A stretch of 64,000 nt of DNA, from the NCBI GenBank assembly GCA_009192285.1, contig CM018608.1:762201-826200 (forward strand), given 5' to 3'. Source of the DNA: Morchella semilibera. Taxonomy: Eukaryota; Ascomycota; Pezizomycetes; Pezizales; Morchellaceae. The notes beneath the pieces were generated by a model. It searched no databases. It saw nothing but the letters and a program-made list of their open reading frames with translations, and was not told where the DNA came from. Below, in pieces: positions 1 to 7,639 of the stretch (position 1 is its first letter; each line of letters starts with the position of its first letter). The position numbers and the translations under genes were made by a program.

Positions 1-1100
1 ATAAATAATCGGAATTGCTTAACACTACCCATTTGAGTAGTACAAGTCTGTTAATCATGTTATGCATAATATTTTACGAAAAACTTTCAACAGATAAGGA
101 TAAGCAGAAATAAGCAGGAATATGTAATCAAAAGTGCCGATAAATATAAATAAGTACGGATAAGCGCTAATAGGCGTCATAAGTCTGATATTCCCTGCAT
201 GCTAGCCCAACAAATACGCAGAATAGATAGCGCCCCATATGACAAAGTGGGAGTAAATAAGCAAGGGATAACAGTAATAAGTGACGATAATTAGAAGAAG
301 TAAAAATAAGTATAGATTAGTGGTAATAAGTTGCAGCAAGTCTCGGCATTTAACAATTATTATACATTTCACATAGATGCACCAAACATCAACGGATTTA
401 GTTAATAATTTCATTGATATTATTACTTGAGATTTTATAATATTCTTGATGATATGTATATATTTATATATAATTCTTTGCAATCGCTATTCTGTTGTCC
501 TTCATACCTCAAATCATTTTCGAACTAAAGTAAAAGCTATCATATAAACTCCAAAGGCATGGTTTGTACCCAATCATTCCTTGTCAATAATTTAAGCGAC
601 TTATCTTTCTACAGAATAATTCAATGCCCGAGCAAATCGTTTCTGATAAAAACAATCACAACGGACCCAAGGAGATAATATCAATCTCAATCGTAATAAA
701 TAGGATACTTTGAGATTTTTCCCCAAAACCCATACTTACGTATCTAGATCCCTTTATCGTACCATATAGCTCAACAATGTCAATGCAATCAAGAGTTGCT
801 GAAACTCTACTACCGGATAATCAAAGCCAAGAAGATACGCAAATCATTCCCACCTACTATTCTTAAATGACGATGCAACAATTCCAGATACTCAAATCCC
901 CCGTGAACCTCAGCCTCCTCAACTACCAATTCTTTCGTTTTCAGATGCTGGCCAATGGAGTGTTGGATCACGTATTAATACACGAAGAAGATTGCTAGGA
1001 TCTATTCCCGAACATACTAGAGTGGGAGAATACGATTGTCGGGAAGAGCATTTACAATACCATTACATAGCGTTGAGGTATTACCAAATACTTACATATT
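1..1100. other. AT-rich stretch without a supported gene
   Basis: Strongly AT-rich sequence with runs of variants of 'aataagta/gataagca' between about 90 and 330 and many stops in all frames. The minus-strand ORF at 202-483 has low-complexity Ile/Tyr/Leu composition and no recognisable domain, so I do not call it. I see no RNA gene here. Confidence 0.5.
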
Positions 1101-1119
1101 TGAATACTTTCTCACATGC

Positions 1120-2200
1120 AATTAGGAAGAAACTCGTCACGCAATGATCCTTGGAGACAGGGGTGATGCCAGCAGGCAACATCCACGTCGTACTTCCGAT
1201 GATATTAATGCATGGCTCCTACAAGCACAAGCAGATGCTACGAACTCTTCTTCATCTATTTCTGCACCCGTATTTCCAGAATCTGTTACACGGGCAGTAG
1301 CGAAATAACTACCATGAGCCAACTTGAAAGACCTTCGTACCGCTTAAAAGATCAGGCACCAGAAATCCAAACAATCTTGAAGATCGCAAATGATGGAGTT
1401 GATGCATATACATTCCTTATGGAACCATTTAGTCTTCCAGATCCGTTGAATCTTGCATTACAAAAAAATTATGGCAGGAATCTGCAACCAAAGCCAAAAT
1501 GGATCCCCCGATCCTAAGTAACACCTACCTCAAGATTGTAGGTTATAAATTCCATTACTTGAATAAATGGTTATTAATTTTACAAGATGAAAGACTTTCA
1601 TGTTTATGCGAAATCTAGATTACTCAATCGAATGAAGTCAAAACTGGAAAGATCACTTATACGGATTCAGTGAACTATCAACCACAGAGAAAAAAACTGA
1701 ACGTGCAGTATATCTTTTGTATAAAGATAGATTCCTATGTCAACCAAAGCATTACGAGGTAATCAGATCTCTTTATAAAAATTAGCAAAAAAACTAATAA
1801 TTATCTCATATAGGATATTAAATTCTATTTTTTAGCTCCCGAATTGATTGAATTAATATATCCATATATATTACCATGATACCACCGGACGAGTTCGAAA
1901 AGATGATATATTTCTTGAACAAATAAATCATAAATTTATTTGTTTAGTTTCGACTGCCATATGGTATAATTTACGTCGAATATCATTAGGAAATCCAACG
2001 AAAGCAAAAACAATTGGGGCATTTTGGGGTACAAAAACAAAGATGTTTTAGGTAAGCTTGGTATCGAATTTAGCTTTTTCAAGTACTAAAATAGAAATAT
2101 TTTCTTAGCTACGTATACACGACTAAAAAATACTTAGGTGGATCGAAGGCCATCAGTTCAGGAGCATCTATTGAGACTTATCAAAGATGAATTACGACAA
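1120..2200 (+). pseudogene. Decayed coding remnants, possibly DUF6532-like
   Basis: Protein-like segments on the plus strand lie in different frames and are interrupted by stops. Examples are RLKDQAPEIQTILKIANDGV (around 1340-1400), TERAVYLLYKDRFLCQPKHY (around 1690-1758) and, after a possible short intron, FLAPELIELIYP (around 1832-1867), then CLVSTAIWYNLRRISLG (around 1946-1995). The order of a helical start, a 'ppe' block and a VSTAIWYNL-type block recalls the fungal DUF6532 family, whose function is unknown. That assignment is a weak inference from layout. No complete ORF remains. It lies beside the Tet-like dioxygenase remnant on the opposite strand, and both could be cargo of one old mobile element. 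Confidence 0.25.
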
Positions 2201-2449
2201 ATGGTAAAATCTTATAATTATTTTTTTATACTATGAATCTTAATATAGATGAGACTCGCAGATCGAAGAAAATTCAACAAATGATATCTCAACAAAAATT
2301 GAAGGACATCAAGATGATGACGATGATTTAGAAAGAGAGCTAAATCTCCGAAGGAAAAGAGTAAGGCCAGATGATCGGGATGAGATACAGCCCTAATGAA
2401 CCCAGTATTACCCCACCCCCATATCCATCGGGTCAAGGTACACCTTAAA

Positions 2450-2885
2450 ATGTACGTATTGAAATATCTGTATTGATCATATCAATATTACGATCATGAA
2501 TATCAGAAGCTAATATCTCTATTACTTTTAGAGCGATCAGAAGAATTGTGACGGTAACTTTTCATTCCTATATTTGTTTTTGAAAAGAAATATTTTTGCT
2601 ATAGGTTGTATTTAAATTATGTTATTTTTTTTTCTTGGATTAATCAATATATATATATGTCTACTCAATAGATTTGCGATTATGAATCTTCGAATCTAGC
2701 CTAGATCGGAAATCCGATCGATGCGATAATTTAATTTAAAATCCTATCTTATACAATCTTTCCATTTAAAATACATGCTGAACACAAAGCAGATCGATAT
2801 TTCCGTTACGAAGTTCCGGTAATCCTTCTAACAACTCCTTCAATCTAACTACATTATCTTTAACATTTGCTACCCCTATTTGAAT
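2450..2885. other. AT-rich spacer between two gene remnants
   Basis: AT-rich with no ORF of note and no recognised RNA or repeat. It separates the plus-strand remnants from the 3' end of the minus-strand Tet-like gene. Confidence 0.4.
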
Positions 2886-2889
2886 AGCA

Positions 2890-4560
2890 TTTTTGTACTC
2901 TTGATATTTAGCTGTTTATTCACTTGACATGTAGTTGCATATCTTGTAAATCCCGATCCCGAAACCGCCCGTTGCGGACCGTACGCGTGGATCATCCTGG
3001 TCCCCGGACCACACCAACGATCTCCGTAATTCCATCGATCGTTGCGAAATCAATTAGCGTTTTATAGATAGTACAGTAGAAGAAGTGTCCATAGGGAATT
3101 GGTAGCCATCAGAGAACGCGAACGATCGAACCGTCCGATGTCCGAATAGGTGCCCATATTCCAGATGTATATTTAGAGACATCGTTGTCTCGGTGGCGAT
3201 TTATTCCGAAATCCACCATAGGTATAAGCAACTTGTGGTGTGAAAAGAGTCTCATTCTTTAAGAATATAGCCGACTCCGTTCCGTAATCGATGCCGAGGA
3301 GTGGTAGCTTTAGTTCCCGGACTTGCTGTTGCCTTTGCCGAAAGAATGCCGGTGCCATATCGAGAAAGCTTCTACCGAGATTGCGATGAAATCGTAGCGC
3401 TTGCGAGAAATGTTCAGATAGTGTATCTGGACATATGTTTTTATTCATTGCGTATGTACCGAAATCCCAACCCGATTCCGTTCCGGCGCGATATCCTATA
3501 GATTTCATGACACCACCAGTCTGGGCATGATTGCATTTAATTTCTGAGTGAAATTTTTGATCTTTTTGAACATAATTGAAGTTAAATTGTAGTTCCGATA
3601 AGCGTTCCGGTGCGAGATCTTTAAAGAGAGTAATTTTGTAGATTATTCGAACTTCTCTGGAAGCCGAATCGATAATGTATACCGTCTTCGATTGGTCTCC
3701 GATAATTCGTTTAAATTTGCGATCATTCCAGATAGTATCATTATATGTCCATTCCTTCCCAAACATTTCCGTAGCGATCTTTTCGTCCCGTTTACGATGC
3801 ATGAGAAATACCGATTCCGATTCAACATCTAAGAAGAGGGGTATTAGTAGAGTTGATAATATCAATATAGAATCTAATTACCTTCTGGTTTCTTATCAAT
3901 GAAATCCAGAGCTGAGTTCCGTTCGATATCGATCTCTAGCTTGCGATTAGATTTGCGTTTGTTGCGTTTTGCGAGTTTACGATTTTGACGTTGGGTATTG
4001 GCGATCCTATGCCAGTATGTTGTTTGTTTTTTGATTTCGTGACGTATTGCAAAGTGACGATTCGATGCGATATTGATCCCTCTTCACGCGTTCAGCGATC
4101 CTGTGGCCCGCTTACTGCATCATCGAGGCAGACCTGATGAGCCGATGTGATGCTCTTCCGCGTTTCAGCGACACGCTATACTAGGATCATCGAGGCGACC
4201 GAAGGGATAGATGTTTCTCTCCCGCGTTCAGCGACACGCTTACTAGCATCATCGAGGCCGACCGATGGAGGCGATAAGGTTCTCTTCGCGTGCGTTCGAT
4301 CGAACACGCTACTAGCATTCAATCAGGAGCGACCGAGCATGAGCGATAGAGTCCTCTATCCGCAGTTCCCTAGATCCGACACCGCTTACTAGCATCATCG
4401 AGGCGACCGAAGGCGATGTGATCCTCTCTGCGTTCAGCGACACGCTTACTAGCATCATCGAGGCGACCGAAGCCGATAGAGTTCTCTCCGCGTTCAGCGA
4501 CACGCTTACTAGCATCATCGAGGCGACCGAGTGTGTTGCGAGATTTGCGATAATCCATAC
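2890..4560 (-). pseudogene. Tet-like 2OG-Fe(II) dioxygenase gene, apparently broken
   Basis: A spliced minus-strand reading can be followed. An upstream exon (about 4085-3882) encodes a basic region (HEIKKQTTYWHRIAN...). A 53-nt intron (3881-3829) with good GT-AG ends follows. A 3' exon, open to 3173, contains GGVMKSIGYRAG, LGRSFLDMAPAFF and YTYGGFRNK. In a neighbouring frame the similarity goes on with HRDNDVSKYTSGIW (H at 3193-3195, D at 3187-3189), FATIDGITEIV, WCGPGTRMIHAYG (second H at 2987-2989) and TTCQVNKQL. This order matches the fungal Tet-like 2OG-Fe(II) oxygenase domain (PF20515 type): an HxD iron motif and a distal His after the 'GFxNxxHxD' block. Related TET/JBP-like proteins in mushrooms often travel with KDZ DNA transposons. 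At least two or three frame changes separate the conserved blocks, so the copy is probably dead or the assembly carries indels. Family assignment is from memory. Confidence 0.5.
4090..4535. repeat. 60-bp minisatellite, about seven copies, probably coding (20-aa repeat)
   Basis: The core 'cacgcttactagcatcatcga' region recurs about every 60 bp. The cleanest units start near 4437 and 4497, and copies to the left carry more indels and substitutions. The period is a multiple of three. On the minus strand, where the three cleanest units stay open (4558-4370), it encodes a 20-residue repeat containing RLDDASKRVAER. It lies just upstream, on the same strand, of the Tet-like dioxygenase remnant, so it may be an N-terminal repeat region of that gene. 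The indel-rich copies break the frame. Confidence 0.75.
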
Positions 4561-4789
4561 AGAATATTTAAGATATGGTATGAATATTGGGGAATGTTAC
4601 TGCTATATATATAGAAAATTGATATGATTGATTTGTTAAGTCCTATTATAATATCAGATGCCTATTCGTAGTGGCTTATATCTTAGTCAGTTTTTATGCT
4701 AACGTAACGATTAGTAGTTCAGGACAAAGCTACAAATGCGTACTTCTATTTACCAATTTCAACAATATGAATTGATACTTATGCATTGT

Positions 4790-6590
4790 GCTAATCAGGA
4801 AATAGTAAGGCTCAGCGGCATGGAGTTTTATAGTACTGGATTTTTACCATTTCCTGAATAGCGTCATGTACAGGCGTCACACATAATCGTTGTAGTGTGG
4901 GGGTGAAGTATTATCTTTTGGTTTCATTTTGAGCTTAAAATTGCCAGATTAGCACAAAAACTGACTGAGCTATGAGGCTTTTACTATAGTGGCGGGATTT
5001 TACTATTTCCTGAATGGTTACATTCACAAGCGTCCCACGCAACCGTTATGGTATGGGGGTGAAGCAGTACTTCTTAGCTTTATTCTGCATCAAAAATCCC
5101 CATGTTAGCACAAAAACTGACTGAGTTATTAAGCTTTGACTAATAGATTCCTATAGTGCCGGGTTTCTTACCAATTCCTTACTAGCGTCATGCACAGGCA
5201 TCACACCCAATCGTTGACATATGGAAATAAAGGTACTGCTTTTTAGCTTCATTTTGAGCCAAAAATTACCAGGTAAGCTAAAAACTGACTGAGCTATGCA
5301 AGCCTCAAAATATAGTAGCGGGTTTTAATTCTTTCTTATGAATAGCGCCGAATGTACAGGGCGTCACAGCCTAGTCGTTAGATCAACCTGGAATAAAGAG
5401 TTACTGCCGGCTTTTTAGCTTCGATTTTGCAGCCTAAAAATGATCGTAGCGACACAAAACTGAACCCTTGAATTATATGTGTCGGGTTATTTTTTCTACC
5501 TCTTGTCCTTCAATAGCTGCTGATCGAGTACAGGCACCACACCCAATCGTTGAACACCTGGGAAATATAAAGTACTGCTTTTTTAGCTTCATTTTGGAGC
5601 CAAGAATCGCCAGGTTAGCACAAAAACTGACTGGGTTATGAACCCTTGATTATAGTGGCGGGTTTTTTACTCTTTCCTTAATAGCGGCCATGTACAGGCA
5701 CCACACCCAATCGTTGACACCTGGAAATAAAAAGTACTGCTTTTTAGCTTCATTTTGAGCCAAGAATCGCCAGGTTAGCACAAAAACTGACTGGGTTATG
5801 AACCCTTGATTATAGTGGCGGGTTTTTTACTCTTTCCTTAATAGCGCCATGTACAGGCACCACACCCAATCGTTGACACCTGGAAATAAAAGTACTGCTT
5901 TTAGCTTCATTTTGAGCCAAGAATCGCCAGGTTAGCACAAAAACTGACTGGGTTATGAACCCTTGATTATAGTGGCGGGTTTTTTACTCTTTCCTTAATA
6001 GCGCCATGTACAGGCACCACACCCAATCGTTGACACCTGGAAATAAAAGTACTGCTTTTTAGCTTCATTTTGAGCCAGAATCGCCAGGTTAGCACAAAAA
6101 CTGACTGGGTTATGAACCCTTGATTATAGTGGCGGGTTTTTTACTCTTTCCTTAATGCACCATGTACAGGTCACCCAATCGTTGACACCTGGAAAAAAAG
6201 TACTGTTTTTAGCTTCATTTTGAGCCAGGAATCGCCAGTTAGCACAAAAACTGACTGGGTTATGACCCTTGATTATAGTGGCGGGTTTTTTACTCTTTCC
6301 TTGATAGCGCCATGTACAGGCACCACACCCAATCGTTGATACTGGAAATAAAAGTACTTTTTTAGCTTCATTCTGAGCCAGAATCGCAGGTTAGCACAAA
6401 AACTGACTGAGCTATGAACCCTTGACTATAGTGGCGGTTTTTACTCTTTCCTGTACAGTGCTATTACAGGCGTCACACTCAATCGTTGACAATGGAAATG
6501 AAAGCCTATTTTTAGCTTCATTCTGAGCCATAAATCGCCAGGTTAGCGCAAAAACTGACGGAGATATGAACCCTTGACTAATGCAATGGA
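4790..6590. repeat. Satellite array, about 157-bp unit, about 12 copies
   Basis: The anchor 'agcacaaaaactgactg' or its variants start near 4951, 5107, 5275, 5448, 5617, 5777, 5934, 6091, 6241, 6393 and 6544. Spacing is 150-173 bp, with 157 bp most common. Each unit also carries 'ccaatcgttgacacctggaa' and 'tagtggcgggttttttactc'. Copies at 5617-6240 are nearly identical to each other, and the outer ones are more diverged. There is no ORF. The unit is much longer than a CRISPR repeat and leaves no unique spacers. Confidence 0.9.
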
Positions 6591-6757
6591 CTCTGCATTA
6601 GTCAAGGGTTCATATCTCCGTCAGTTTTTGCGCTAACCTGGCGATTTATGGCTCAGAATGAAGCTAAAAAGTAGTGCTTTCATTTCCATGTGTCAACGAT
6701 TGAGTGTGACGCCTGTACATAGCGCTGTACAGGAAAGAGTAAAAACCCGGCGCTATA
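6430..6757. repeat. Palindromic junction: last satellite unit inverted
   Basis: The arms 6510-6585 and 6594-6669 are perfect or almost perfect reverse complements around an 8-nt centre (6586-6593). Weaker complementarity continues outward to about 6430 and 6757, so one whole satellite unit faces its mirror copy. The array ends here. The right arm carries 'gctatataata' (about 6750-6760), a TATA-like sequence, next to the following ORF. It could be a real fold-back duplication or an assembly fold-back artefact. Confidence 0.85.
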
Positions 6758-6761
6758 TAAT

Positions 6762-7457
6762 ATGGCTTATGCCTTCATATTTCCTCCTTTTGACAGCAAC
6801 AACAATGTCTACCTCCTCTACCTCCTTTACCTCCTCTACCCCTCCTGGCCTGTCCGTAATGGAGTGCCAGTTTGGGACAAATTTATCAATAAACATCGAG
6901 CTGATTGGCTTGATCGTGCCTTTCGTTTACCCAGCCTCCATAACTCTATACAAATCAATACTCCTATGTGTACAACATGTATTTCTGCTCTACAAGATCG
7001 TGGTCGCGAGTTCTGTGTGCAGAAACTTGATCCTACCAACCGAGTCATCTCCTCCTGTAACAACTGTTTACGTAATGGTCGCAAATGCTCTTTAAACCCC
7101 CGAGCCCTTAAGCGATCAGTCATTAGTCTCCTCTCCGATGAAGAGGATACTAGCAGCGATAGTCATTCTCCACCTCAACAGAACATCAAACGATTCCTAC
7201 AAGATAAAGAAATCAAGAAAGAGGAAGTAAATAAAGAAGGAGGGACCGAGGGAAAGAGAAAAAAACTTCTAAAGGAAATGAAATGCCATCTGGAGAGGAA
7301 AATGAGTTTCATCGATCAGATTGAAATAGCTAAGTATGAACAGGAAACTATGCGGGAGGAATACAAAAAACAAATTACCAGTTGTAAAAATCAGATTTCT
7401 AGAATAGATATGCTTGTATTGGAGCTTAGTGAAGAGCTACTTAAGTTGGATCTATAA
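6762..7457 (+). CDS. Small protein with Cys cluster and C-terminal coiled coil
   Basis: Open frame of 231 codons with no family I recognise. From about residue 69 there is a cysteine cluster, CX2C-X11-C-X13-C-X2-C-X6-C, probably metal-binding. Its last part resembles half of a Zn2Cys6 cluster, but the spacing does not fit the classic fungal transcription-factor domain. A Ser/Asp-rich linker follows. Residues about 140-231 are rich in Lys and Glu with heptad-like spacing and probably form a coiled coil. The first ATG (6762) abuts a TATA-like sequence at the end of the palindromic satellite copy, so translation more plausibly starts later, for example at the ATG at 6966 just before the cysteines. 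The gene may belong to the same accessory block as the Tet-like remnant. Function is unknown. Confidence 0.45.
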   Translation: MAYAFIFPPFDSNNNVYLLYLLYLLYPSWPVRNGVPVWDKFINKHRADWLDRAFRLPSLHNSIQINTPMCTTCISALQDRGREFCVQKLDPTNRVISSCNNCLRNGRKCSLNPRALKRSVISLLSDEEDTSSDSHSPPQQNIKRFLQDKEIKKEEVNKEGGTEGKRKKLLKEMKCHLERKMSFIDQIEIAKYEQETMREEYKKQITSCKNQISRIDMLVLELSEELLKLDL

Positions 7458-7639
7458 TAGTTTGGTCATGTAATTAAATTAACAGTTCGCTCCTGGACAT
7501 GTCAGCATCGGCTCCCAGCACCTGCGCGTCAACCCTAGTTATCTATTTACATACAGGTAGTCTTGTGCCCAGCCTTTCTCTGCTGTGCGACAACAAATCA
7601 ACAGTCTGGGAACGAGACTTATGGTGCGGTAAATGTTTC

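Follow-up and report, generated by a model that had tools for sequence, protein, structure and literature searches.

The window analysed here is a stretch of 64,000 nucleotides, and close to its left end the minus strand carries sequence blocks that an initial annotation read as the remnant of a Tet-like 2OG-Fe(II) dioxygenase gene within an accessory block. Does this locus encode such an enzyme, to what kind of DNA does the gene belong, and what could the enzyme be for? The gene contains the following features.

2806..4558, minus strand: two-exon gene for a Tet-like 2OG-Fe(II) oxygenase (PF20515), its reading frame interrupted in the window copy (profile search and sister copies)
3829..3881, minus strand: 53-nt GT-AG intron (seen in 7 of the 11 regions searched)
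4060..4530, minus strand: 60-bp repeat array encoding 20-aa units, GRLDDASKRVAERGEDHIAF, indel-laden below 4377 (TRF, 4377-4530)

The ATG is located at 4558, and the end near 2806 is placed from sister copies. Two segments of the window match PF20515, positions 3877-3173 (minus strand, 2e-13) and 3258-3109 (minus strand, 8.3e-5, which alone is under the gathering score). With a genome-wide profile search, the two pieces have scores of 50.8 and 31.4 bits, both past the cut-off, and the sister copy on contig C11 matches positions 2-209 of the 211 in the profile (3.6e-36). Chance similarity to PF20515 is ruled out by these matches in the window, the genome and the sister copy. The initial annotation was therefore correct about the enzyme family, and also about a spliced gene on the minus strand, as the intron has GT...AG ends with a CTRCTAAT branch-like motif in the same seven regions. 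The TET/JBP profile that was to be checked as well, PF12851, is absent among the oxygenase matches at E<=1.

The catalytic motifs had been placed correctly only in part. The HRD (HxD) motif is found at about 3195-3187 in the window, and it is intact in seven of the eight copies that reach it, the C7 copy having a stop inside the motif. The distal His, on the other hand, is not the one originally proposed, because WCGPGTRMIHAYG is out of frame and the sister copies read WCGPEDDHGTATGG in its place. A distal DDHGT is present in the copies reaching that far, and is located in the window copy by projection only. The metal triad HxD...H of PF20515 Tet-like oxygenases is present in the copies that reach it.

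The block reading also missed the first (N-terminal) exon with its 20-aa repeats. These units are found in 8 of 10 copies examined, with two to eleven in each. They are near-invariant except for positions 16-17 (mostly DH or NS, also HH and YH) and position 20 (F, L or S), as judged from 35 units, some of them frame-broken. The predicted structure of the window oxygenase fragment has a mean pLDDT of 34.8. A sequence search through the PDB with the oxygenase gives chance-level matches only, up to E 10, and no solved TET structure. No PF20515 match is observed in 14 control genomes, a weak control made up of well-known genomes, including bacteria and archaea, and a literature search on the PF20515 name found no paper.

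The oxygenase gene is almost certainly the cargo of a Helitron. The window copy of this element is about 15.9 kb long and occupies C6:753807-769739 in the source genome (mapped ends and blastn). Its left 8.4 kb, with the 5' end, Rep and the PIF1 helicase, is located outside the window (tblastn of the left flank), and the remainder has the following features.

1..7539, plus strand: right part of the Helitron (blastn against seven other multi-kb copies; mapped ends)
777..2042, plus strand: gene A, in pieces in the window copy (comparison with the C11 copy)
5528..6577, no strand: 157-bp satellite array, internal to the Helitron (TRF)
6805..7454, plus strand: Cys-rich gene, C-X2-C-X11-C-X13-C-X2-C-X6-C (sister-copy comparison)
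7490..7539, plus strand: Helitron 3' end, ...GCGCGTCAACCCTAG(T), then T (13 genome matches)

Rep and a PIF1-type helicase are the machinery of rolling-circle transposition, and both are present in the 14.75-kb C11 copy, as expected for the Helitron superfamily. The order in this copy is 5' end, small ORFs, Rep, helicase, a DUF6532-like gene, the Tet-like gene (on the opposite strand), satellite, Cys-rich gene and 3' end. In profile searches Rep is recognized by PF14214 (2.1e-12) and the helicase by PIF1 (1e-30), and Rep matches Helraiser (7lcc) at 1.9e-19. The HUH and Y2 motifs of Rep are found (H-x-H in 'AIHTHSLLW', and 'YITKYVTK'), and a Walker A motif is also present in the element proteins.

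The C-terminal part of gene A in the C11 copy resembles DUF6532 (PF20149) at 9.5e-4, under the gathering score. DUF6532 has 57 matches genome-wide, and as many of them have identical scores this domain may itself be transposon-borne. The Cys-rich gene has a coiled-coil-like tail and no Pfam match at E<=1 (C11 copy), and its frame is shifted near the 5' end in the window copy. All 57 scored genome matches of the satellite lie inside Helitron copies, as judged by position, and the copies that bear it are on C6, C2 (two copies), C11, C1, C19 and C7; the satellite as an independent repeat is thus unsupported. A search of viral_contigs for relatives of the Helitron confirmed none. What had been called an accessory block is, in its satellite and orphan genes, a single transposon, and ordinary host genes are located to its right, with gamma-tubulin complex, Sec1, DUF3591 and TPR matches in five of the six proteins scanned and no match in the sixth.

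The ends of the element were examined for 12 of 14 5' matches and 12 of 13 3' matches; the remaining three are incomplete, or a weak match in reverse orientation. Each of the 12 5' ends reads TTAAACATAC, mostly with unrelated flanks, and two of them are an allelic pair; the C21 and C22 copies near 0.54 Mb are allelic. The base preceding the 5' TT is A in seven cases, T in three (two from the allelic pair) and G in two. At the 3' end, CTAGTT is followed by divergence in 10 of the 12 ends, and divergence sets in earlier in the other two. The ends are sharp and there are no terminal inverted repeats (TIR), as in the Helitron superfamily in general.

The element shares with Helraiser and Helitron1 the Rep protein, the absence of TIRs and a 3' CTAG, which agrees with the canonical CTRR and is found in 10 of 12 ends. 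It differs from them in its flanks, which are T|T rather than A|T, and in its 5' end, which is TTAAAC rather than TC. In addition, there is no subterminal 3' hairpin above chance, in comparison with shuffles at three lengths (z +0.8 to +2.3), and a 5' hairpin is weak at one of two lengths (z -1.5) and has a z of +0.3 at the other. For the two copies for which an empty insertion site was sought in the same genome, none turned up. The ends are Helitron-like but not those of a canonical A|T Helitron1, and the T|T flanks presumably resemble those of Helentrons.

A PF20515 profile search of the source genome finds at least 12 matches at at least 10 loci, all past the cut-off. Searching the DNA with the catalytic exon recovers these 10 loci, and also a 164-bp stub in the C22/C21 allelic pair and a further short piece on C7. 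Multi-kb element DNA is common to eight of the ten loci, including that in the window (aligned flanks), and at the C19 locus the shared parts are the first exon, satellite and Cys-rich pieces, so that further Helitron DNA is present at nine of the ten. The tenth locus, C2:1431635, shares the oxygenase fragment alone, with 71-73% identity, and a 5' end of the family lies at a distance of 20 kb, on the strand that fits. There are sister copies with an unbroken PF20515 domain and shared flanks, and these are the intact paralogues with the same neighbours that the initial annotation had called for.

Some copies can dispense with the oxygenase gene. Both ends are kept in the C22/C21 allelic copy, from which about 0.93 kb of the catalytic part of Tet has been lost. 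At C19:4166652-4182177, same-strand ends of the family, 80 and 83% identical to those of C11, are 15.5 kb apart, with no match to the Tet gene between them in the catalytic-exon DNA search. Three 3' ends (C19, C16 and C2) and three 5' ends (C4, C1 and C22) have no paired PF20515 neighbour.

Several copies show rearrangements. The C22:536463-557455 copy also holds a LINE-like insertion and short repeated insertions, and the copy at C2:3566574-3588365 carries a large duplication inside it, running from the end of the helicase through gene A. The C4 copy is a mosaic, as its dS from C11 is 0.76 in the Cys-rich gene and 0.06 in the oxygenase. The contig pairs C21/C22, C12/C13 and C9/C10 match at nearly equal coordinates, and as a result both homologues seem to be represented in the assembly over part of the genome.

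Is the window copy a decayed, dead remnant of the element? Its frames are broken in the Tet gene, Rep, the helicase, gene A and the start of the Cys-rich gene, as expected from decay. The kilobase in which most of the catalytic exon lies, however, is not low in complexity, and relative to C11 it has just 3 substitutions as against 13 insertions and 3 deletions, which makes the term 'remnant' doubtful. In a comparison with four copies around the oxygenase gene, the count for the window copy is 74 positions inserted, 4 deleted and 52 substituted, of which many fall in the repeat exon, while C21 and C4 have 45-52 substitutions and 4-9 insertions. Insertion-rich patches of other copies are located partly in AT-rich kilobases of lowest complexity, where real slippage is likely. 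One kilobase of the C2b copy, with 66 insertions, 26 deletions and 10 substitutions, could have arisen in this way, as it is rich in AT and ranks with the least complex kilobases of the element. Decay of the window copy is the less probable of the two explanations, by a modest measure. The frame breaks may be assembly errors, which is favoured though not proven.

There is purifying selection on the oxygenase and the Cys-rich gene between copies. The dN/dS values (NG86) are from copies mostly chosen by the presence of the oxygenase itself; the pairs are non-independent, and drift after insertion is included, which raises the values. For the catalytic exon, 10 copies give 45 pairs, of which 39 are scored, the other six having a dS of at most 0.02 or not computable. 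The values are 0.08-0.57, and at most 0.39 in 38 of the 39. The Cys-rich gene has values of 0.02-0.66 (30 of 36 pairs), at most 0.26 in 29 of the 30. In comparison, the values are 0.24-0.64 for Rep (15 of 21 pairs) and 0.22-0.44 for the main helicase piece (18 of 21 pairs). The helicase C-terminal piece (0.33-1.29; 15 of 21 pairs) and the gene A pieces (0.12-0.96) are less constrained. The first Tet exon, a short sequence, has values of 0.18-0.54, and a small upstream ORF 0.15-0.65 (15 of 15 pairs). Against the diverged C2c fragment the oxygenase has a dN/dS of 0.08-0.11, with dS near saturation. In all probability, the oxygenase is selected for the benefit of the element.

What benefit could this be? 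The likeliest reading is that of an eraser of silencing marks, given constraint like that on the element machinery, the methyltransferase genes of the host, and a CpG bias in three of the five copies tested. We assign a probability of roughly 0.6 to an element-encoded TET-like enzyme that would counter methylation silencing of the Helitron. The enzyme would be made from the Helitron's own gene and kept at or close to the DNA of the element, possibly by way of the 20-aa repeats or the Cys-rich protein. It would then oxidise methylated cytosine on this DNA, host silencing would be weakened, and Rep and the helicase would stay expressed. Targeting through the 20-aa repeats in particular is improbable.

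DNA methyltransferase (PF00145) matches are found at four places in the genome, on C12, on C13 and two on C19, and the C12 and C13 places are probably on homologous contigs. The excess of CpG>TpG over other C>T changes, which are unpolarised in this comparison, is present in three of the five copies tested: C7 (98/737 versus 237/3353, odds 2.0, p 1.6e-7), C1 (151/788 versus 425/3413, odds 1.7, p 2.2e-6) and C22 (64/748 versus 208/3600, odds 1.5, p 0.006). It is absent in C21 (p 0.78) and C4 (p 0.23), and the three youngest copies have no CpG excess by eye. There is no clear CpA excess, with C7 slightly raised (0.080 versus 0.063-0.066), and RIP is rejected; CpG-biased decay of this kind fits CpG methylation better.

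The host methyltransferases and the CpG-biased decay in these three copies make 5-methylcytosine in DNA the simplest substrate, and the odds that it is the actual one are about even. Alternatively, the oxygenase could serve the element by acting on 6-methyladenine, thymine, RNA or protein. It has no close solved relative in the PDB sequence search, and the available text of PMC12730594 leaves room for other activities of the PU and PE types and has CcTET also acting on 6mA. Set against the same methyltransferases and CpG bias, which favour 5-methylcytosine, such a substrate is unlikely, though it is the strongest competitor to an eraser of 5-methylcytosine. That the oxygenase is a captured passenger gene with no role for the Helitron is very improbable: Helitrons do capture genes, with fungal cases in the accessible part of PMC4289320, and copies without the catalytic part exist (C22/C21 and the C19 end pair), but no PF20515 locus is demonstrated outside the Helitron family among the at least 10 loci (the tenth being a diverged fragment), and the dN/dS values are comparable to those of Rep and the helicase, and low against the C2c fragment, where dS is near saturation.

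Other transposons also carry TET-like enzymes. The association with KDZ transposons that had been proposed is rejected, as there is one KDZ place in the genome (two pieces, C2:3104306-3104795), and the PF20515 locus closest to it is about 0.48 Mb away. Iyer reportedly described KDZ transposons with TET/JBP genes in 2014. They resemble the element here in bearing a TET-like enzyme, but this element has Rep and helicase in place of a KDZ transposase, and PF12851 is not the domain in its oxygenase.

A closer parallel is in the Pezizales. The available text of Kojima 2025 (December 2025; PMC12730594) describes TET-positive, or TET-encoding, Helitron1 in five Pezizales species, which likewise pair a Helitron with a TET-like oxygenase, in a fungal host that has DNA methyltransferase genes, and for which a counter-silencing role is inferred. 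In that text HxE is the hallmark of PE-type TET, whereas HxD is found here (in 7 of 8 copies), which by description sets the two apart. The Helitron is already known if it is among the Kojima 2025 families, and a variant if the HxE hallmark stands. Of the undescribed element with a base-modifying enzyme that had been suggested, the mobile element and the putative enzyme stand; it is a Helitron and not a KDZ transposon, and in view of PMC12730594 it does not count as undescribed.

CcTET and NgTET1 (PF12851) are also 2OG-Fe(II) oxygenases with HxD...H, and PF20515 is named Tet-like by Pfam. However, they have no sequence match to the PF20515 oxygenase, while the protein L040 of the same genome matches CcTET at 2.8e-6. 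PF12851 matches are found at 19 places in the genome, four of them past the cut-off and none a PF20515 locus. A profile comparison of the PF20515 oxygenase with the PF12851 proteins of the same genome gives no match, the profile being thin, with five near-identical rows.

One PF12851 gene, C6:396941, has a score of 24.9 bits as a protein, under the cut-off of 34.9, and keeps the HxD (AHKD). It adjoins the helicase of a different Helitron, C6:394500-404499 (L039), with DUF6570, PF14214 (Helitron_like_N, 1.2e-31) and PIF1. A bolder and rather doubtful proposal is that of a fourth transposon-borne TET-like lineage, apart from PU, AG and PE, in which a Helitron-carried PF20515 oxygenase with HxD would be steered to element DNA by its N-terminal 20-aa repeats and the Cys-rich partner. 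The PF12851 gene beside an unrelated Helitron would then indicate two independent recruitments.

The selection data from this one genome support the recruitment of oxygenases by transposons against silencing by DNA methylation, and a rolling-circle element can keep such a gene under constraint while spreading. Confirmation of the second Helitron would give one genome two lineages with two TET-like families, which would indicate that such recruitment has happened more than once. As some copies have the catalytic domain and others lack it, their methylomes can be compared directly. The source genome also contains further PF12851 TET/JBP genes, L040, L041 and L042.
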